From contig NW_006281102.1 of assembly GCF_000203795.2 (NCBI RefSeq), positions 1,034,567 through 1,098,566 on the forward strand: a stretch of 64,000 bases of DNA. The letters run 5' to 3'. A model generated the notes under the pieces. The model did not search any database, was not told where the DNA came from, and saw only the letters and a list, made by a program, of their open reading frames with translations. The position numbers and the translations under genes are program-made. Position 1 is the stretch's first letter; each line of letters opens with the position of its first letter. Source of the stretch: Batrachochytrium dendrobatidis JAM81 (Eukaryota; Chytridiomycota; Chytridiomycetes; Rhizophydiales). Positions 28,482 to 48,138 of this stretch are shown here, in pieces.

Positions 28482-30622
28482 AAATCGGTTATTTTTCATT
28501 AAATAAAACCATACACATTCCACTGCTAAAGCTATCAACAAGAATTTTGACTTTTATGGTACAGGCCAATCCAAAATAGATATGGACCAAACGTTTGCTT
28601 GCCATTGATCTTGGACACAGTAAACGATACTCGCCACTTTGTTTGGTGTGACTGATCCAATCCAGTTTGGGTTATTTAGGCTTTTCAAATGCAGTTTGAT
28701 CAGCAGTGCAGTTGTAGACTGACACTTGATTGAATCGATTGTTTTTGTCGGTTTCAAAAGCGTATTGAACTATTGTGACCATTAAAAATAATGATTGTAA
28801 ATGGGATTTATTTTGGGACGAGTAGTATGGTTTTGCACACAATGTTGGTCGATTATCCAAGTATCGAGTACATTGTTATTCAGATCACTACACACAAGTC
28901 ATGACCAATACAAATACATTACTGCCGACACTGATCAACACCATAGATGAAGTCAGACAGCACAGCAAATCACCAGCATGCTATTGACCGTGTTGTAATA
29001 CAGCTGACCAACATATCATGCTCATCAAGTCACGACATTCAATATTACTGACTGAATACAAGTCACAGCTGCAAGTATCCATGTGGTAATGGACTGACAT
29101 TGGTGTTGATATCCAATCGATTGACTAATCGATCATCATCAATTGAATCAGTGACTGGTATATGCAACTGATATACACCATATTTGAGTCTGATACATGT
29201 TGATATATGCGTGTCGATCAACAATGCATATTTGTAGCATTACAGTTGAATGTGACCACAAGTTGTATAAATGTAAGTCGAATCGATCACTAAACCAACA
29301 AATTAATGATTGCAGTCTAAATGTAGTGCGATTTGATGCGACATGACAATATATTATCCAACAGGTTCAACATATACAAACGGTAGCAATGACCAACTCA
29401 AACCAACAATGACCGAGTTACACATCAACATATAGTCGATCATCAGTCGAATCTGCATATATCAAACAGTTGCAACACGTCATAATCAATGTGAATTGTA
29501 TTCCTCACCAATCGATCATGACAGCTAATCAATACCAATCATGTAGTCAATACAATCACCAGCATATCGATGATTGTTGACTGGTGGTTACAACTCGTCA
29601 ATTGCATCCAATGTTGCAGGTGATGCACATCTGATTACTGCAAATCAACAACTTGTCCAGCAAACAGTTATACCGTTATTGGACACTATTGAACACTGTT
29701 GGACATTACGCTTGTCAAGCATATCATAGTGTCGTTCAAGTTTGCACAATGATATCCAATAGTTTGTACTGTGGAACACTCGGCTATACAACAATCAATG
29801 TTGTTCATTATCGATCAAGTAATCAGCGGTATTTAATCGTATAATTCAAATCTTCATTCAATCATTGATTGCTGATTCCTGTACGATAAACACATTTCAA
29901 CATGTTGATTAAAGTTGGTTTTGGCAGTGTCTTTTATGACTGATACAATACTGATGCAGTGTTGTGTGCTTTGATATAATATGATATATAGCGGTATATT
30001 TATTACTAATGTTTTGAGCTGATGTGGCAAATATTGCTTTATGATGGCCGCATTATTATCAGTAATCCTCGTATATGGTTTGTACTGGCCATCACTACCA
30101 AAAAGCATCAACCACGTACTAGTTGTGACAATGCAGCTCGATACGGTCCATTATTGTAAATATGTTTAGATTACTAAACACATCTATTGCTGTAGTCATC
30201 CGAGTAAACCCAGAGTATTCTTTCAAAAACAGCGCATCACCAACCAGTTACTCGACATGTTTGAGTAGATATTGGTGTTGTAGTTTGGACCGCATTCAAA
30301 CTCATGTATTTCGTTTAGACCAAAATTTAATCACACAAAGATCCAATCTGCCAATGGTTCATGTGTGGTAGATACTGATATAGTTGATTGAGCTGACATT
30401 TTATATCTGATTGAGTAGTTTGAAATATAACACCAGCCACAAGTTTAGTAATATCACCGAGATGGCATCACAAGTGATCTAGCAGTATTATCCTACACTC
30501 CAGCAATTATATTATACTTGCATTGCTGACATTCGAATTTGCAATACAACTTGTCTAGAATAATACTCCAGTCGCTATTGAATTGTGTTGACCAAACTAA
30601 ACAGGAGTCCACAATTGTCATG
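28482..30622. other. Decayed, homopolymer-poor intergenic sequence
   Basis: About 2.1 kb without a supported gene. From about 28900 to 30100 the sequence is made largely of short words such as TGAT, ATCA, CATC, TCGA and has few runs of four or more equal bases. A short phrase, CGGTATxxAATCGTAT, recurs at 29827 and 38151. No RNA gene seen. Confidence 0.5.
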
Positions 30623-31002
30623 ATTCCAATATGCATTTAAAACATATTACCACGCTTAAATGGATCAGGGTCAGGGTTGTGATCGAGCTTTGATAGTCAA
30701 GCAAAACAGATATTCCAGTAACGGATATTTTATCCTGACACTTGGACACCCTGACCACTAAAACCAAAAGCACCCTTTTAGCCCTGCTTGTTGTTGTTTT
30801 GCGGAATCTATGCTCACAATCAGGCCGCTCCACAATCCGGTGTTTGAATGCACTGCTAAACAGTGCCTAAAAGCATGTGCACTTTGTTTGACTGAAATGT
30901 GCAAGTAAATGTAGTTTACTTGGCGTCATACTGGTTTAGTTTAGTCTCCCTTTGTTGTGATCACAAGTACGATTTTCCGGATTGTCTCGGACAAATTTGT
31001 AA

Positions 31003-31010
31003 TATAAAAA
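31003..31010 (+). promoter_or_regulatory. TATA box of the left secreted-peptide gene
   Basis: TATAAAAA lies about 80 bases before the start codon at 31091 and is preserved in the other palindrome arm (32492-32499 on the minus strand), where the segment between this box and the ATG is also nearly unchanged. Confidence 0.5.
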
Positions 31011-31090
31011 GACAGGGTTTACCGAGATTTTAAACTCATCAAACATCATCTCGATCTACTCCAATCCAATCCAATCTAATCCAACCAACT

Positions 31091-31258
31091 ATGCAATTCA
31101 CTATCGTCGCATTCATCACTGCTCTTGTCGCATGTGTCGCTGCTACTCCTAGTCCACTTACTGCTCCACGTCGTTGCATTGATGACACAGATTGTCACAC
31201 AGGACAAAGATGCGACATTGCTATTAACGGTGGATCAGGACACTGCGTTGATGAATAA
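31091..31258 (+). CDS. 55-residue cysteine-rich secreted peptide, copy A
   Basis: Single exon, ATG at 31091, stop at 31256-31258. Residues 1-18 form a signal peptide (MQFTIVAFITALVACVAA), followed by TPSP and a mature part with four cysteines in the pattern C-x5-C-x5-C-x10-C. The last part reads GQRC..., then GHC and an acidic end. Such small secreted cysteine-rich peptides are typical candidate effectors or extracellular defence peptides; no family is recognised. The paralogue on the other arm (32244-32411) has the same first 22 residues and the same cysteine spacing but only 15 identical residues out of 33 in the rest. The gene is in a region with no other gene for several kb. Confidence 0.75.
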   Translation: MQFTIVAFITALVACVAATPSPLTAPRRCIDDTDCHTGQRCDIAINGGSGHCVDE

Positions 31259-31688
31259 ATGTTTTGGTTATATTTGTGTGCCAGCATTCGTTCTAGAGCC
31301 TGTTCAAGTTGCATCAACTAGCTTAAACTTGAATTTTGGAATGAATAAACTCCATTTTACAATGATATTTGGCTGATATTGTATAACATGACTTTGCATA
31401 GATTTAATCACGAACGGTTGTTTTGTGTTGAGTGGCTTTGTATAGTAACGATCCAAACTGTTGAGCCTGATTGATCAGCATATAAAACGTGAATATGATA
31501 ACTTGTGCAGGTTTAGAAACGCATACTGTGATATTCACCAGTATTGATGTTCCAGATTGCAACCAAAAACTGGCAGTTTTTGTACCAGACTATCACTCAT
31601 GAATGCAGAATGATTCGACACGATTATATTATTTTGGTCGTCAATCTATCAGATAAACCTTGTTTGTAAATAATCGGAAATTGTGAGT

Positions 31689-31813
31689 CGATTACTAAAA
31701 TGGTTTCATTTTAAACAAATGCAGGCTTAATAATAAATTCAGTTTCAGCAAACTGTTTTATAATTGTTTGTTGTTTTTAAAACGCAATAGTCCAAAATAA
31801 GCTTTATATTGGC
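31689..31813. other. Spacer at the centre of the palindrome
   Basis: These 125 AT-rich bases separate the two arms and show no match to either. They would form the loop if the arms paired. Confidence 0.7.
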
Positions 31814-32906
31814 ACTCGCAATTTCCGATTATTTACGAACAAGGTTTATTTGATAGATTGACGATCAAAACAATATAATCGTGTCGAATCATTCTGCATT
31901 CATGAGTGATAGTCTGGTACAAAAACTGCCAGTTTTTGGTTGCAATCTGGAACATCAATACTGGTGAATATCACAGTATGCGTTTCTAAACCTGCACAAG
32001 TTATCATATTCACGTTTTATATGCTGATCAATCAGGCTCAACAGTTTGGATCGTTACTATACAAAGCCACTCAACACAAAACAACCGTTCGTGATTAAAT
32101 CTATGCAAAGTCATGTTATACAATATCAGCCAAATATCATTGTAAAATGGAGTTTATTCATTCCAAAATTCAAGTTTAAGCTAGTTGATGCAACTTGAAC
32201 AGGCTCTAGAACGAATGCTGGCACACAAATATAACCAAAACATTTATTCAAAAGCGCAGTGTCCCGTTGTCTGACCCTCAGCGATCTTGCATCTTTGTCC
32301 TATGGGACATTCAGCATCAACACTGCAGGAGGGTGGAGCAATACGTGGGCTAGGAGTAGCAGCGACACATGCGACAAGAGCAGTGATGAATGCGACGATA
32401 GTGAATTGCATAGTTGGTTGGATTAGATTGGATTGGATTGGAGTAGATCGAGATGATGTTTGATGAGTTTAAAATCTCGGTAAACCCTGTCTTTTTATAT
32501 TACAAATTTGCCTGGAACAATCAGGAAAATCGTACTTGTGATCACAGGGCTTTGCATGTAGATAGGGGTGCTCGCAGCAAAGAGGGACTGGATTAGACTA
32601 GTACAAAGCCAACTGTATTTAGCCACCTGTTTCAAAGTCAAATAAAGTGCACATGTTTTTAGGTACTGTTTAGCAGTGCATTCAAACACCGGATTGTGGA
32701 GCGGCCTGATTGTCAGCATAGATTCCGCAAAACAACAACAAGCAGGGCTAAAAGGGTGCTTTTGGTTTTAGTGGTCAGGGTGTCCAAGTGTCAGGATAAA
32801 ATATCCGTTACTGGAATATCTGTTTTGCTTGACTATCAAAGCTCGATCACAACCCTGACCCTGATCCATTTAAGCGTGGTAATATGTTGTAAAAGCATAT
32901 TGGAAT
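31814..32906 (-). repeat. Right arm of the 2.3 kb palindrome
   Basis: Inverse complement of 30623-31688. It carries peptide copy B and shows extra sequence in the promoter (net +27 bases) relative to the left arm. The outer end lies about 25 bases before the region with copia-like motifs begins. Confidence 0.92.
32244..32411 (-). CDS. 55-residue cysteine-rich secreted peptide, copy B
   Basis: Single exon on the minus strand, ATG at 32409-32411, stop at 32244-32246. The signal peptide and the TPSP that follows are identical in sequence to copy A. The mature part keeps the four cysteines (C-x5-C-x5-C-x10-C), the GQRC core and GHC, but 18 of 33 residues after position 22 differ, including charge reversals (Asp to Lys after the third Cys). 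The 3' untranslated part and several hundred bases beyond are almost identical between copies. Likely a secreted effector-type peptide; function unknown. Confidence 0.75.
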   Translation of the reverse strand: MQFTIVAFITALVACVAATPSPRIAPPSCSVDAECPIGQRCKIAEGQTTGHCAFE

Positions 32907-35844: not shown

Positions 35845-37113
35845 TCAATCCGACTCTGCCCCAAACTCTAAATCATTCTTTTTCGAAAGTCTTTCTAATC
35901 GTCGTTTCAGACGGTCTACTTTTCCCTTTTCCTTTTTACACTCTTTATCCAATTTCTTTCGAGTCTTCAGGATGTATTCTGAATCTTGTTCCACTTCAAA
36001 AGACATGGACCTACGGTAAGCATCGCACTTGGCTGTTTTTGCTCTTATGGCCTTTTCAACTTTTTTCATTAGTTTACGAAGGTGCCTGTTTGCTTTTCTT
36101 GACATAACCTTTTGGTTTAAATCAGCATTGTTTGACTGATCTTCATCAGATGGGCGTTTCCCGCCTCGTCTGGAAGTACTTGGACCAGATTTATCAATCG
36201 AGTGTTTCCGACCTCGACCGGAAGTGCTCGACCTGGCTTGTTGTAATTTTTGTTCCAAAAATTCTACTTTTCTCCATGCCGTTTGCCATTGACTATCCAA
36301 TCGATATTGACGTTGTTTGCTATGCTTTTTCCCAGATATCGGTTTTCCCTGCGATATTGACTTTTCTTGTTCATGTTCAACAACCCTATACCCATAGGAA
36401 GTATCACACGCGACTGTTTCTGCGGTATCAGCAGCTTCAAGTTCTTGCACTAATTGCTGAATGAGCTCACGGGTTTCTCTTGGATATTCTCTATCAGATG
36501 GGAGTTTTCGGCTTGGTTTGGTAGTGCATGGACTAGGGTCAATGTCAGGGTATTGCTCATCTTGTTTGGAAGTACTTGGACCAGGTTCATCAATTGAGTG
36601 TTGCTCATTTTGTCTGGAAGTACTTGGACCAGGTCGAGCACTTCTGGTCGAGACGAGCAACGCCCGATTGGTGCGCCTGGCTTCTTGTAATTTTTGTCTC
36701 AGAAGGTTCATTCTTTTATCTGCAGCATGCCACTTTTTTTTCAACTCTTGTTGACGTTGTTCGCTATGCTTTTCTCCATATATCGGTTTGCCCTGCAATA
36801 TTAACCTTTCTTGATGGGGCCTAAGAGCCCTATACTTATAGAAAGCATTAGCTGCGACTTCTTCTGCATTATTAGCCTCTTCAAATTCTTTCTCTAATTG
36901 ACGAATGAGCTCATTGTCTCCTCCTGATGCAGTCCCTTGATTCGAGTCATTATTGCCTGACTGATCTTCATCAGATGGGGTTTCCCGACCTCGTTTGTAG
37001 ATGCTTGAACTGAGTCCAGATGTTTCGGATAAACCATTGCTACCAGTCGAAACCAGTACTGCATTGGCGGTTACTGCCGCGGCCAGTAAGAATAAAATGT
37101 CAGTGAATTTCAT
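35845..37113 (-). CDS. Secreted repeat protein with three coiled-coil units
   Basis: Single exon of 422 residues from the ATG at 37111-37113. A signal peptide occupies about residues 1-19 (MKFTDILFLLAAAVTANA). The mature protein consists of three related units of about 70-80 residues. Units one and two each hold a heptad-like helix, a GKPI(Y/S)G(E/K)KHS(E/K)QRQ block, then a second helix ending in LxQKLQxAR. Unit three is more divergent and strongly basic. The linkers are Ser/Pro/Thr-rich and carry repeated GPSTSR motifs. This architecture (signal peptide, acidic linker, charged coiled coils) is typical of the expanded secreted families of Batrachochytrium; the function is unknown. A TATAAATACGAT core lies 75-86 bases before the start. 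Confidence 0.8.
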   Translation of the reverse strand: MKFTDILFLLAAAVTANAVLVSTGSNGLSETSGLSSSIYKRGRETPSDEDQSGNNDSNQGTASGGDNELIRQLEKEFEEANNAEEVAANAFYKYRALRPHQERLILQGKPIYGEKHSEQRQQELKKKWHAADKRMNLLRQKLQEARRTNRALLVSTRSARPGPSTSRQNEQHSIDEPGPSTSKQDEQYPDIDPSPCTTKPSRKLPSDREYPRETRELIQQLVQELEAADTAETVACDTSYGYRVVEHEQEKSISQGKPISGKKHSKQRQYRLDSQWQTAWRKVEFLEQKLQQARSSTSGRGRKHSIDKSGPSTSRRGGKRPSDEDQSNNADLNQKVMSRKANRHLRKLMKKVEKAIRAKTAKCDAYRRSMSFEVEQDSEYILKTRKKLDKECKKEKGKVDRLKRRLERLSKKNDLEFGAESD

Positions 37114-37187
37114 CAAGCCAATAAATGAGTTTAAGCAGTTAGTGCAAAAGCAGATTGCCGAGGTTGATTCTAAACTGAATGTACTGC

Positions 37188-37199
37188 ATCGTATTTATA
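37188..37199 (-). promoter_or_regulatory. TATA core TATAAATACGAT of secreted repeat protein gene
   Basis: On the minus strand TATAAATACGAT lies about 75 bases before the start codon at 37113. The same 12 bases occur at the same relative place before the secreted genes at 40882 and 47212. Confidence 0.6.
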
Positions 37200-40360: not shown

Positions 40361-40882
40361 TTATGGACTCTGGGTTCCACTAGTAGAGGCTTGCTCGGAT
40401 CTTGGCTGTTGAACTGGTGGAGAATTGAAAAGTGTGTCGGCGAGTTCCAAAAAGTCGGGATCTGTTTCCAAAAATTGCATGTAATATTCGATTGGTTGAT
40501 CCATATTTCCCTTGAACAGGCGTTCTAGAAGCAGTGTCTCGATTTCACCCAATCTCCACTTGAGATCTAAAAAATCCGGATCCCACTGCTCCTCTGCAAG
40601 TTCATCGAGAGTTTCTTTTTGTTCAAGTTTTTCAGATTGTAGCGAGTCGTGTATTTTCTCTTCATCGTTACAAGCCTTCTTTATATGTGCGTATTCTTTG
40701 ATCAAATCCATATCCTCTTCTGAAAGTTTACTAAGATCAACTGAAAGTGTAACTTGTGCACTGGGAACAACTGTCGAAGTGCTAGCTCCGGCACTTGCAG
40801 CTGCACTGGGAAGGACTGGGCTGGCTGTAGTAACCGAGCAGATGGCCAGGATTGATGCTAATACTGTGACTGCGAGTTTCAT
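40361..40882 (-). CDS. Secreted effector-like protein, shortened paralogue
   Basis: Single exon of 173 residues with ATG at 40880-40882. Signal peptide about residues 1-20 (MKLAVTVLASILAICSVTTA), then an Ala/Ser/Thr stretch and a helical acidic region (LSEEDMDLIKEYAHIKKA, later YMQFLETDPDFLELADTLF). Compared with the paralogue at 47212-48138 (308 residues) it lacks about 60 residues in the coiled-coil middle and ends early at a stop codon. The signal peptides and LSEE(D/G)M(D/N)LIKEYA block are closely alike. It belongs to an expanded secreted family of unknown function. Confidence 0.75.
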   Translation of the reverse strand: MKLAVTVLASILAICSVTTASPVLPSAAASAGASTSTVVPSAQVTLSVDLSKLSEEDMDLIKEYAHIKKACNDEEKIHDSLQSEKLEQKETLDELAEEQWDPDFLDLKWRLGEIETLLLERLFKGNMDQPIEYYMQFLETDPDFLELADTLFNSPPVQQPRSEQASTSGTQSP

Positions 40883-40942
40883 TGTATTGGTTTGGTTTGG
40901 TCGAGCAAGTTGTAATTATTGGTATTCAACAAGCAAGGCTGG

Positions 40943-41858: not shown

Positions 41859-43876
41859 TCACAATAAACCAAGATTATACACTCGCTCATATATGTCCTT
41901 GTATGCTGCTGTGATTCGAGTTTGGTCGCTTGTCAATTCATCTCGATAGTGTTTGGCTTCAGCTGGTGATTGAACACCTTGAATATACTGCGTGATATCA
42001 TTCCACAGTTCAGGCAGTATGTGTGTCTTGTCAAGACTCGAGTTGTACCATTGTGGTTGTTGTGGAGCCACATGCGCAGTCGAAACAATCCGACGAGATG
42101 GATTCACTACAAAAAATGTCAGAATCTTGCAGTGTCCTGGTTGAGTTGGATCTGCAAGTTCAAATGATTGTTCTTTGTGTTGGTATCGATTGGGATAAAC
42201 TACACATCGACCATTTGATACTTCAAGCGATCCTATATACTGACTGCGTGGTGATTCTAGATCAATAATGCCATACACATCTTTCCAATACATATCAGAT
42301 GCTTTTTGACGATCAACCCGATCAACAGCCTCGCGGAAATCGAGTTCGGGTGTGGTGATATTTTCCACGTCGTAGTAATACAGTCCAGTTGCAACAATCG
42401 ATTCGTTAATTGGACCTTCAATGTGCCAGTTTCCCTCGTCGTATTTAGGTTTGGATGGTGTCAGTTGAATGTTGGTGAGTTTGACAATGACTTGTAGATT
42501 ACGACCACGCAGTGACACTGGCTTTGCTGATTCATATTTGGATTTGAAATGTTTCGGAAGTGTTGGTACATACACGGGACGAATGACTCGAGTGTATGGT
42601 TCCATACCACCACGACTTGATTGGCTTGATGGTTCATATCCCTTTGTGCCATTGTGAATATCAATATATTTGAACATTGGATCCATCGTTCTGAACAGAC
42701 TTTCAAACATCGGGACAAAACATTTGAATATTTTGGCAATGCATTTGTACATGTCTCGATGCCATATCGGATTCAGATTGTTGATGTATGAGTTGATGGT
42801 CACACTGCCATCCTGTTCGACACAGAATTCACTCGGAAGACATTGGAACTTGCGTGATATAAACTTGGAACTGCTGTCAGTGATGGGCGTATCTGAAATA
42901 AGTCGAGTCGATAACAATATATCGCATGGTACCATTGTGGTGTATTCGAGTCGTATACTCAGTGGTACAATCATCGTTTGTCCATATACAGCACTGTACA
43001 TTGATGCATCAATCAGATTGTGCACCATTTGACCAGTGTTGTGATTTGATCCATGTTCAATATCCGATACATTTGTCATCAATCGCGTGTATACATTGTC
43101 AGGTATGCCATTGTCCAGTATATACGTCAGTTCAACAGGTCCTGGGACAATTGTACCAAATCCATCACTGCCATTACAAACAAGCTGTTTGACAAAAACC
43201 CGAGTTGTTCCAATGCAAGATTAAATGTTGATGGTGATATATTCCGATCGAGTGAGTCAGCCCTCCATTGCTCCACAATATGCTGGTTTGTGATATCGAT
43301 CCACCACATGGGTTTGCAAAGTATACATTGCATATACTGGATATACCGCATCTCGACAAGTGTGCGTGCATCTCCATGTACATATCCGGCCATTCCAGAT
43401 TTCATATCAATTTCGGCATTGTTGTCGTATGGCTGAATGCTCGAATTAGCAACATGAACCCGATGCTGAAAGCACGTTTCAATGATCTGGCCAGCAACCC
43501 TTTTTCCATTGCAGTCAGTATCCGATTGTACAATAGCCATTAGACTTTCAAATATCCCGCCTTGCTCCAACTCGGTACGTATTGAACTGTCGGGATGATT
43601 GTCGGCAAAATCAGCAAGTGTTTTGATTAGTTTTACAGTACCATCATAGTCACACAAATCCATATCTCTACATGAAAGAACAGTGTTGAGTTGGTTCACA
43701 ATTCCATATTCTCGAAACACCTTGATCATCTCGTCCTTGTTTGTAGATTTCTCAATCATGTCGTTGACATAATCAAACATATGTACAAATATTCCCCATA
43801 CCCCAGCATCACACATCGATATTGTCAATTGCTCAAAAACCAACGATCGTACAAGCGATACAGGAAACTCCCGCAT
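41859..43876 (-). pseudogene. DUF4246 family gene with one frameshift
   Basis: Two long frames on the minus strand cover one protein of about 660 residues. The first, from ATG 43874-43876 to about 43190, carries the N-terminal part (WWIDITNQHIVEQWRADSL). The second runs from about 43190 to the stop at 41859 and has the DUF4246 landmarks: NWHIEGPINESIVATGLYYY, the RCVVYPNRYQHKEQSFEL segment and DPTQPGHCKILTFFVVNPSRRI, then STAHVAPQQ. The two frames overlap around a GGGTTTTTG tract at about 43190, where a one-base change would restore continuity. The H-x-E plus later His pattern resembles a 2-oxoglutarate/Fe(II) oxygenase core; that activity is inferred. Either a recent pseudogene or a sequencing error. 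Confidence 0.75.
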
Positions 43877-46439
43877 ATTGGATGCAATTGTTCCAGCTAT
43901 CCAGATTATGCATGCTCTTAGTCCAATGTCAAGTATACAATCAACAAAACAAAACTCGACACGCTATCCAAACTGATTCAATACTGTATTGTTGTAAACA
44001 TACACTTTCATCGTCAATATCACTGCAAACGGTCGATAATAGGCCAGTCGACAATGTGGACACTTGTTGATCGAACTCGTAACCATATCGACTATAAACT
44101 CGACGCTGCAGTTATACTCATGATTGAGCAACTGTGTATATCGCCTACATACATATCGACACTAGATGAGTTGAATTTCAATCATTTGATCAATATCAAT
44201 CATGGCTTGCTGTCATTTTGACTTGATGGTTTGGTGATTGCATGCATTGTGCAAGTTGGTTGTTTAATCGATGTGATACTTTGAACCGATCATCACTGTA
44301 TACCATACTCGCAATCATTGTAAACTCTGAACTACACAATCAATATTGGTCATGACATGATCAACAAGCAATGATGTCTGTAAAATACGTTGACCATCCA
44401 ATACATGAATGACCGATATTCCATTGTCATACTTGGTCTGTGTTTGACAGCTTGATTTACCTGTTGTTTGTACAACATTACACAATCAATCAACCATATT
44501 TGAGTGCATAGTCTGCAGTTCAACCAACATTAGACACCATCATATACATTAACATGGACATCAGTTTACACTTTGACATTGATAACAATAACACCAATTG
44601 GTTGCAATGACCATTCAACATTCAATCATACTTGACAACATAAATACAATACAATGCAAGACCTACTTGTTGAATGACAACTTGCTTGGATCCAGTAAAA
44701 TGGCACTCGAGTTGTTTACTGTGGTCAGTATATGCAACCCAGTGTGACTACACATACTGAATCCAATCTGTTGATTGTTTCAGTTGATCTTGATTCACTT
44801 TTGATGTTCTGTCCGAGATTGACAATAAAAATGTGTCGAGCTGAAACCAAACTACACAACTCGACTGTTTGTGTCAATTGGATCGTGACTGAACTATGCG
44901 ATCATGATATGGTTCATCAAACTAAATGTCTGAATTCCAATACCGAGTATTCAACTTGAACATCAACATTCCGATGTTGTCAAACCCAAATGTGATTGTA
45001 TTCATACATGTAATGTCAATCAGATCAGTCAGATACAACACTCGTGCTATCCATCGTGTGTAATGTCCAACAGCACAATAATTCATGTGTAGATGTTGGC
45101 AAGTGGTTAGTATATGGCTTGATCGCTAATCATACAATGACACAATTACACGGTCGGCTGATTGATGTCATGATTGTGATAATGGGTCCATGGATCATGA
45201 ACGTTGTGTCAAGATGATGGTAGTCTACACCCGATATGATTGATACGCATATAGCTCAACGCACTCAAACTGATCAAACAACGTTCGGTGTACAGAGAGT
45301 TTCGTGTGGTACACAGTGATATGTGTGATGAGTAGGGTCAACCCAAACATGAAGATTCATCTGATTGATTTGATTTGATTGCTAATCTGTATTGGTTTCA
45401 ACCGAATATGTTGTATTTTTGTTTGAATACAATACAATACAATCGCCGTTTAATATTGTATCTGATTATTCCAGTTTTGGTTGGCATGATATCATATTGT
45501 ACATTGACACTTGTATTTACAATACAATACAATACAGTTGATTGTATATTGCATAATTGTACACATTGATGATGCAGATATGCATGTATGTATAGTGTCG
45601 ATATGATATTGCTTGACATGTCGTATTGACACATGCAACACCAATACCAACAATAGTAATGTGTGTTGATATCAGATCTGACCAATTTGACTGGTTTGAC
45701 TCGTTGATTGTGCTATCAAAAGGTTGCATCAATAGCCTGACTGATCACACACATCAGTTGCAGTATCAACTTTGTCGTGTGTCAAGTATCACATGTTGAA
45801 TATACAATGCCAACAATATGATCAGATATGCTAATGGAATGTAGACCATCATATACTTGCAGCAGTATACCATATTCCAACTATTGATATCGCGCATTCG
45901 ATGTCAATGCAATGTATCAACTCACTCGGTATGGTTGGTATCGATCGTTGTGGTCGTCGAATGCTATCATTGGTCATGCATTACCAGCTGTGTGTGGTTG
46001 ACATTGGCCATCATGATATGTATTCAAATGCAGCATACACCGTGACATTTGTAATTGACTATAGCTGGTGTGGACTGAAATCGATTGTGCACGGTAGTTT
46101 GATATTGATTGCAGTTGTTGATCAATACTCGGACTAATCGAGTTTGGTTGGATGTTTGACATGACTGGTCATATATGGTTTGCACAACATCCTGGATTGT
46201 ACAATGATCACTGTCCAGATGCACATGTCAAATGAGTGTATAATCAGATTTGACGATATTGACCAGATGACACATGCTGATCAACGCAACTGGTGTGAAT
46301 CGTATGCATATACAATGTATGATTTGATCACTCAGATGTATATACTCGACACATGTATCCAATATATCAATCCAAATACACCAACACGATCATCAGGTTG
46401 ACCATCAGATCGACAACCACCATCACAATCAGGCTATAT
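43877..46439. other. Homopolymer-poor decayed sequence with repeat copies
   Basis: 2.6 kb without a supported gene. It contains the repeat at 45345-45913 (listed separately). From 44101 to 44700 only three runs of four or more equal bases occur. Open frames here do not exceed about 95 codons and overlap on both strands. Confidence 0.5.
45345..45913 (+). repeat. Repeat copy carrying the last codons of an effector paralogue
   Basis: 45345-45620 matches, almost base for base, the inverse complement of 39865-40130, including ATGAAGATTCATCTGATTGA, which corresponds to the final acidic codons and old stop of the 40.4 kb gene. 45400-45913 is also a direct repeat of 48205-48697. No effector body adjoins it upstream, so this is a 3' remnant. 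Confidence 0.8.
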
Positions 46440-47146: not shown

Positions 47147-47158
47147 TATAAATACGAT
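47147..47158 (+). promoter_or_regulatory. TATA core TATAAATACGAT of the 308-residue effector gene
   Basis: TATAAATACGAT lies 65 bases before the ATG at 47212. Upstream at 47031 is GGGTGATCATATAAAGGGA, also present in the paralogous promoter at 41070-41090. Confidence 0.6.
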
Positions 47159-47211
47159 ATAAACCCGACTTGTCAGATAACAATCATCCACAACTTGATC
47201 AAATCAATACA

Positions 47212-48138
47212 ATGAAACTCGCAATCACCGTTTTATCATCAATTCTGGCCATCTGCTCAGTTACTGTCGCCAAACCAGTTAATCCCAGCGCGACTACAAG
47301 TGTTGAATCTAGCACTTCAACAGCTGTTCCCAGTGCACAAACTACAGGCTGGATTGATTTTGACCAACTTTCAGAAGAGGGCATGAATTTGATCAAAGAA
47401 TACGCACGAGTGAATAAACAGCATAATGAGGCAAAGGCAATGTGCGACTCGACAGAATCTTTAATATTTTCTCAAGAAAAATTGGTAAAACAGCTAGGTG
47501 ATGAGCTTGAAGATTTGATGGATAAATCTCACAAAAGCAAGCAAGGTTCAAAGTATGAGGAAGACGTCAAAAAAGCCAATTCTTGGCTTGCAGAACAACA
47601 TTCCGTTCTTATCCAGCTTGAAAAAAAGTGTATGGAGTCTTATTGGGACAATTCTGGAATTCGCTCGCAGCTCACTAAAATCAAAAATGAGCTCGTGAAG
47701 TCCCTGTTCGGAAAGCATATTAGTGCAGAATCAGTCGAGGATTACATGCAACTTTTGGAATCGGATTTCATGTTTATGAAACTCGTCAAAGAATTTGAAG
47801 CTCTCGTATCTGGCCAACAACTAGAACCCGAGCAACCTAAGAAATCTGAGCAACCTAAGAAACTCGAGCAACCTGAGCAACCCTCTACTAGTGGAATCCA
47901 GAGTCCACAACATCATGAAAGTTCGCTCTCATTATCGAGTCAAACACCTACAGTTCAATCTACTAAAGCATCTTCCGGTAAACATAAGGCCCCCAAACAT
48001 CCTTCTGGTGGACAAAGATCTCACAAATATTCTCGTGTGCAGAAAACTCACAAATCCTCCCATCCAAAAGGAAGTGCTAAACATAGAGAAGAGCTTAAAT
48101 CACTTTCAAATCAATCCGACTCTGAAGATTCGGATTGA
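47212..48138 (+). CDS. Secreted effector-like protein, long paralogue
   Basis: Single exon, ATG at 47212, 308 residues. Signal peptide about residues 1-20 (MKLAITVLSSILAICSVTVA), then a Ser/Thr region, the shared LSEEGMNLIKEYA helix, a long charged coiled coil (about 60-205), a short tandem repeat EQPKKxEQPKK (about 205-222), and a basic Ser/His/Lys-rich tail (about 240-295) that ends in acidic SDSEDSD. The basic tail could bind nucleic acid or host surfaces, but this is speculation. It is a paralogue of the gene at 40361-40882 in an inverted duplication. The frame is open upstream of the ATG but without a better start. Confidence 0.8.
   Translation: MKLAITVLSSILAICSVTVAKPVNPSATTSVESSTSTAVPSAQTTGWIDFDQLSEEGMNLIKEYARVNKQHNEAKAMCDSTESLIFSQEKLVKQLGDELEDLMDKSHKSKQGSKYEEDVKKANSWLAEQHSVLIQLEKKCMESYWDNSGIRSQLTKIKNELVKSLFGKHISAESVEDYMQLLESDFMFMKLVKEFEALVSGQQLEPEQPKKSEQPKKLEQPEQPSTSGIQSPQHHESSLSLSSQTPTVQSTKASSGKHKAPKHPSGGQRSHKYSRVQKTHKSSHPKGSAKHREELKSLSNQSDSEDSD

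Follow-up and report, generated by a model that had tools for sequence, protein, structure and literature searches.

Inverted peptide genes with near-identical arms and divergent mature segments in a cysteine-rich family of Batrachochytrium dendrobatidis

We analysed a window of 64,000 nucleotides (nt) from contig NW_006281102.1 of the chytrid Batrachochytrium dendrobatidis (Bd) JAM81 (G000:C21:1034567-1098566), in which positions 30623-32906 form a palindrome. Its two convergent genes, A and B, have 55 codons each and encode cysteine-rich peptides with a signal-like start. The arms are almost identical around the genes and over their first codons, whereas the mature coding parts differ strongly. 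Further loci of this genome show it as well, and A and B are members of an 18-gene family. We consider it probable that arm-to-arm gene conversion homogenises the flanks and the signal peptide, while the mature segments mostly escape, exchange in pieces and diversify under selection.

The left arm (30623-31688, forward strand; gene A at 31091-31258) and the right arm (31814-32906, reverse strand; gene B at 32244-32411) were delimited by three inverted repeats (I1-I3) and a base-by-base alignment. The repeats pair 30623-30893 with 32636-32906 (98% identity), 30956-31222 with 32280-32546 (91%) and 31238-31688 with 31814-32264 (98%). An asymmetric spacer of 125 nt (31689-31813) lies at the palindrome centre. 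An earlier sequence-only reading had described two inverted genes for 55-residue peptides across this spacer, an arrangement confirmed by the repeats and the open reading frames (ORFs).

The gap-free core of 684 nt (31005-31688) contains 40 arm-to-arm differences, 35 of which fall within the 99 nt of the hypervariable mature segment (31153-31251 on the forward strand for A; mirror positions 32251-32349 on the reverse strand for B). None are found in the preceding 148 nt (31005-31152, forward strand), which hold most of a TATA-like box, the 5' leader and the signal-peptide codons, nor in the following 379 nt (31252-31630, forward strand), which comprise the end of the coding part and a 3' region with AATAAA; the other 5 lie in 31631-31684. 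Counted by gene part, A and B differ at 35 of 105 mature, 0 of 60 signal and 0 of 320 downstream positions, and the mature codons are thus far more divergent than the flanks. At the protein level the earlier description holds: codons 1-22 encode the same residues (with a first, silent base difference already in codon 21), and 18 of the remaining 33 residues differ while all four mature cysteines and the GQRC and GHC motifs are unchanged. The near-identical 3' flank is gap-free after the stop codon as had been stated, but over 430 nt (31259-31688) and not approximately 550. Both copies have TATAAA 88 nt before the ATG (31003-31008, forward strand, and 32494-32499, reverse strand), AATAAA at +163 and +253, and the leader repeat CCAATCCAATC, all as pattern matches only. 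As the pattern recurs at other loci, the A/B spike is not due to chance.

A protein query against the 23.49-Mb, 33-contig genome (one assembly) returned 18 loci, and the same 18 were obtained with three other members as queries. A and B are therefore a pair, as first described, but one within a family of six inverted pairs and six single loci. Each of the 18 genes is an intact open frame of 52-58 codons, begins with a conserved signal-like sequence and encodes four cysteines in its mature part; in alignment numbering, G39 is present in all 18 and G51 in 17. The 12 paired genes lie approximately 1.1-1.6 kb from their partners, tail-to-tail in A/B, A2/B2, C1/C2, D1/D2 and E1/E2 and head-to-head in F1/F2. 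By their flanks the loci group into A-B, C-D-E-F and S, with S31 apart. The palindromes vary in layout. In the head-to-head F1/F2 palindrome (L022:4507-5815) the mature parts are identical, which is not so in any of the five tail-to-tail palindromes. Two palindromes at L020-L021 (approximately C1:3.7158-3.7261 Mb) are mutual inverted copies and make up a nested palindrome, and the E palindrome (L023:1453-8560) has 3.4-kb arms, roughly three times the length found elsewhere in the family.

A profile built from 17 of the 18 peptides, without A2 (identical to A), retrieved only four family proteins from the protein collection, one of which is peptide A itself. The public proteins resembling B, E2 and S31 come from records labelled Batrachochytrium dendrobatidis, and the match to S31 is exact. 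No homologues beyond Bd were found in the protein searches, either with this profile or in the others, which gave no candidates. No description of the family was found in the literature searched, including searches by species name, or in the available parts of PMC11797018, PMC9926174, PMC3862624, PMC3823881, PMC11115238 and PMC2680619.

The spike of mature divergence was observed in comparisons both between and within palindromes. The C and D palindromes form an inverted 3.8-kb duplication, in which the two mature segments differ at 71 of 216 sites and everything else at 28 of 3613. For two single genes on different contigs, S12 (contig C12) and S3b (contig C3), there are differences at 40 of 108 mature sites and at 122 of 2881 in the rest of the block, with 3 differences in the nearest 420 upstream nt and a further divergent patch upstream. 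Between the E arms the counts are 12 of 99 mature sites and 11 of 3307 elsewhere, while B and B2 differ at 8 of 108 mature sites. The extreme is C1/C2, where a coding core of approximately 100 nt is up to 44% different between the arms. Among the 17 genes other than S31 there are 42 pairs with a flank distance below 6%; the mature distance is at least 25% in 34 of these and below 15% in 8.

The palindrome itself looks older than the divergence between its arms. Together with the inner arm ends, the spacer is homologous to the centres of the C, D and E palindromes. The window centre matches those of C and E at 194 and 193 of 254 positions in one orientation, against 157 and 155 of 254 in the other; the D centre matches at 195 of 254 in the opposite orientation and 157 of 254 otherwise, because the D block is inverted. 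The centre of the A/B palindrome is approximately 76% identical to those of C, D and E, compared with 320 of 320 downstream positions between the A and B arms. Four palindromes sharing one asymmetric centre imply that the palindrome is old, and probably a single palindrome was inherited by both groups, whose flanks are now approximately 23% apart. The arms nevertheless agree within each palindrome: the downstream regions of A and B differ at 0 of 320 sites, those of A and C1 at 68 of 295. Four-arm sites of A/B and C1/C2, sorted as concerted, same-arm and cross-arm, number 95:2:1 upstream, 64:0:0 downstream and 11:3:3 in the mature part. A palindrome that looks older than the split between palindromes, with arms agreeing within each, supports the earlier suggestion of gene conversion that homogenises everything except the mature part. 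Upstream arm identity is kept in recent block copies (same-arm to concerted sites 19:0 for C versus D, and 22:1 for A/B versus A2/B2), so no arm exchange is seen since those duplications. The locus S3c matches window positions 28908-31754, covering the left flank, the left arm and half of the centre, and for S12, S23, S3a and S3b the match begins at 31866 and runs on into the right flank; the single S loci look like separated arms.

Exchange also appears to occur within the mature part. D1 occupies the position of C2, yet its mature part resembles that of D2 (86%) more than that of C2 (59%). In the C and D comparison, where the upstream flanks keep arm identity at 19 same-arm sites to 0, the mature part has 6 concerted sites, 1 same-arm and 1 cross-arm. 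Towards the end of the mature part, a stretch of 30 nt is identical between C1 and D2 and borders a 30-nt bin with 15 differences. By eye, two proteins from other Bd records look mosaic: P0002 resembles B but ends like A (CVDE), and P0003 combines stretches resembling E1 with others resembling E2, although these mosaics could instead derive from ancestral polymorphism. P0002 differs from B at 5 residues and P0003 from E2 at 3, and by eye all 8 differences lie in the mature part.

Silent changes indicate that selection alone does not account for the spike. Among codons with an unchanged residue, silent changes were found in 3 of 18 for A/B, 2 of 22 for C1/D2, 3 of 15 for C2/D1 and 3 of 13 for S12/S3b. 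The flank rate would predict 0.09-0.23 (0.15 for A/B, 0.09 for C2/D1), an approximate expectation assuming 0.75 silent sites per codon for four pairs chosen among diverged mature parts. Given this excess, the mature lineages look older than their own flanks. In contrast, the eight low-divergence pairs have an excess of amino-acid changes, with a ratio of non-synonymous to silent differences per site (pN/pS) of 2.5 (one-sided Fisher p 0.027). The seven pairs without S23/S3b give 2.4 (p 0.042), and B/B2, D1/D2 and E1/E2 alone, a set chosen after looking, give 4.2 (p 0.007). These p values are rough, since some pairs share sequences. An amino-acid excess is seen in younger pairs only, and the fast adaptive change proposed in the sequence-only reading is insufficient by itself. 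In the A/B mature parts the synonymous divergence (dS, 0.47) is as high as the non-synonymous one (dN, 0.41), the signal part has no changes, and codons that keep their residue carry more silent changes than the flank rate predicts. On these grounds we rejected positive selection as a sufficient cause.

To account for these data, we propose that the ancestral unit was an old tail-to-tail palindrome that was copied around the genome, and that ectopic gene conversion between arms, and from locus to locus, would homogenise the promoter, the signal-peptide codons and the 3' flank, usually sparing the mature segment of approximately 100 nt. Conversions that overwrite the mature part were probably lost, as two different peptides would be worth more than two identical ones, and the many mature mismatches probably halt conversion tracts at the segment edges. 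Exchanged mature pieces would yield new combinations in which amino-acid changes are then favoured, such that the disulfide frame and the expression unit would stay fixed while the loops diversify. PMC2680619 reports mitotic recombination for Bd, together with short tracts that may stem from conversion. The most likely use of the products would be a small arsenal of extracellular peptides against changing targets, such as host skin molecules or competing microbes. More tentatively, the palindromes could constitute a built-in diversification device, as the earlier description suggested, in which each arm serves as template for the other and so keeps the expression unit and the signal peptide fixed, while mature cassettes move in pieces from arm to arm and from locus to locus to give new secreted peptides without sex in a largely clonal animal pathogen; a focal process raising change in the mature codons may also exist. 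We regard this extended version as possible but doubtful.

Several observations weigh against conversion that spares the mature segments. Across the 42 close pairs, which share genes, mature and flank distances are correlated (Spearman 0.57), which leaves room for a local fast clock. Mature parts are in some cases no more divergent than their surroundings: F1/F2 has 0 of 105 mature differences yet 9 of 284 downstream, A and A2 are identical (0 of 108), and S23, S3a and S3b are only 1-4% apart, little or no more than what surrounds them. The mature four-arm sites are entirely concerted for A/B versus D (18:0:0) and versus E (20:0:0), so the escape from homogenisation is not complete. Homogeneous arms would take less conversion had each clade formed its palindrome separately; on the right side, the outer flank of C has no match to the window beyond 32906. 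As regards selection, A/B dN is below dS, the amino-acid excess is limited to young pairs, and its strongest form comes from the three pairs chosen after looking. Finally, the A2/B2 centre holds a run of N in the single assembly available.

One rival is recent duplication followed by ordinary point mutations under positive selection, which makes conversion unnecessary and is in line with the amino-acid excess in young pairs and the cysteines conserved in all 18 genes. However, mature synonymous divergence is far above that of the flanks, and the mature parts of A, B and S12 are roughly equidistant (31-32%) although the A/B flanks are nearly identical and those of A and S12 differ by 12-25%. 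With the palindrome also old by its shared centre, we judge this account quite unlikely. Local hypermutation or a dedicated diversification of the mature codons, by a mutator or templated editing, would explain the sharp edges, the high dN and dS, several multi-hit codons, the 33% mature divergence within the young C/D block and the climb of mature with flank distance in the 42 non-independent pairs. It is opposed by A/A2, F1/F2 and S3a/S3b, with mature parts 0-1% apart at 2-6% flank change, and by the silent share in B/B2, D1/D2 and E1/E2 (2 of 36; p 0.009, pairs chosen after looking), which is too low for a blind mutator; we consider it unlikely.

An assembly artefact from fold-back reads or collapsed haplotypes is highly improbable. 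The N run at the A2/B2 centre and the location of S23 on a 13-kb contig, possibly a redundant haplotig, would fit such an origin, but fold-back would give identical arms, whereas here the mature parts and the outer flanks differ. The centre also recurs at three further sites, approximately 76% identical to that of the window, and B-like and E2-like proteins are present in other Bd records. The same evolutionary mechanism could alternatively serve self/non-self signalling (pheromone-like or kin recognition), and not attack on a host or microbes. Hypervariable secreted cysteine-rich ligands with a fixed frame are known from recognition systems such as the plant S-locus SCR, and paired loci could hold alternative specificities. 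Two weak points speak against such a role: no receptor domain occurs among the Pfam matches of the 10 window ORFs scanned (5 of them without any match), and PMC11115238 and PMC2680619 describe Bd as reproducing mainly clonally and as having no known mating-type alleles. Signalling is accordingly an improbable use.

The product is probably a secreted peptide of approximately 32-38 residues with two disulfides, as predicted from the alignment of the family. By eye, a hydrophobic start, the putative secretion signal, ends before an invariant Pro20 in all 18 genes. A role as effector or defence peptide is plausible, the mode of evolution being what points to a host- or microbe-facing function. Pfam DUF7107, WAP and Dickkopf_N gave partial, weak matches to the cysteine spacing, all below the curated cut-off for each of the three peptides scanned. 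Solved structures likewise gave only weak matches in a sequence search with the 17-peptide profile (best E 0.021). No conotoxin family was among the Pfam matches of the three peptides, and no conotoxin name among 21 PDB sequences with E<=10. The mode of evolution is nonetheless like that of the conotoxin superfamilies, with a conserved signal, a hypervariable, short, disulfide-rich mature part and cysteine codons kept by position (TGC in 18, TGT in 16, TGC in 14 and TGC in 18 of the 18 genes). In conotoxins both dN and dS are raised in the mature exon, according to the available parts of PMC3862624 and PMC3823881. We do not take codon conservation as proof of a special mechanism; it may reflect plain ancestry, the explanation given in the available part of PMC3823881. 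Unlike conotoxins, the Bd genes are fungal, have four cysteines and no intron or obvious propeptide, and lie in arm-homogenised palindromes.

Mammalian Y-chromosome palindromes are old inverted repeats whose arms are kept alike by arm-to-arm conversion. The Bd palindromes are likewise old inverted repeats with similar arms, but these are approximately 1-3.4 kb long and contain the divergent coding core described for C1/C2. Small secreted proteins (SSPs) of Batrachochytrium are defined in the available part of PMC9926174 as secreted, shorter than 300 amino acids (aa) and with at least four cysteines, and those of B. salamandrivorans are reported there as enriched in gene-sparse regions. All 18 family genes agree in length (52-58 aa) and cysteine number (four in the mature part), and their loci lie in multi-kilobase repeated segments; they differ in that only the four family proteins, peptide A included, are in the protein collection. 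The main text of PMC9926174, as available, has 0 occurrences of 'palindrom', 'inverted' or 'gene conversion'.

A second divergent island, absent from the earlier description, lies approximately 135-225 nt upstream of both ATGs, beyond the gene A promoter region (30894-30955, forward strand) and on the gene B side (32547-32635, reverse strand), and includes indels. One version is common to A and A2 and the other to B and B2, while the E arms are identical there; the island possibly has a regulatory role. The A2/B2 palindrome is carried by an inverted copy of window segment 27009-35881, located approximately 137 kb away on the same contig (G000:C21:1199729-1208999, L019), with 192 differences over 8831 aligned sites (approximately 98% identity). 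A drop to 80% identity downstream of B2 was considered as a conversion border and rejected, as it is caused by the N run in L019; further N runs occur in L024-L026. More widely, family loci share multi-kilobase segments with window positions 27009-49962. No transposase or reverse-transcriptase domain was found in the 10 window ORFs scanned. An ORF in an E arm (L023:7801-8208) reads by eye like a piece of reverse transcriptase, so transposon cargo is a possible reading. The same repeat-rich neighbourhood encodes two proteins that look related (40361-40915, reverse strand; 47152-48138, forward strand); both start like a signal peptide (MKLA.TVL.SILAICSVT), and neither has a Pfam match. Also in the window are a stop-to-stop frame of 449 codons (35845-37194, reverse strand) that has charged repeats and a start resembling a signal peptide, of which a 423-aa part has no Pfam match, and a DUF4246 protein over two overlapping frames, suggesting an intron or frame break (41859-43963, reverse strand), with its N-terminal match just below the cut-off.

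If the proposed reading is true, a mainly clonal fungus implicated in amphibian declines has a compact, apparently almost unannotated peptide family, set in palindromes with arm-to-arm conversion, that diversifies as venom genes do. Such a family would make it possible to test at the genome level how a hypervariable core is kept separate from a conserved frame, and as a marker it may vary strongly from one isolate to another.
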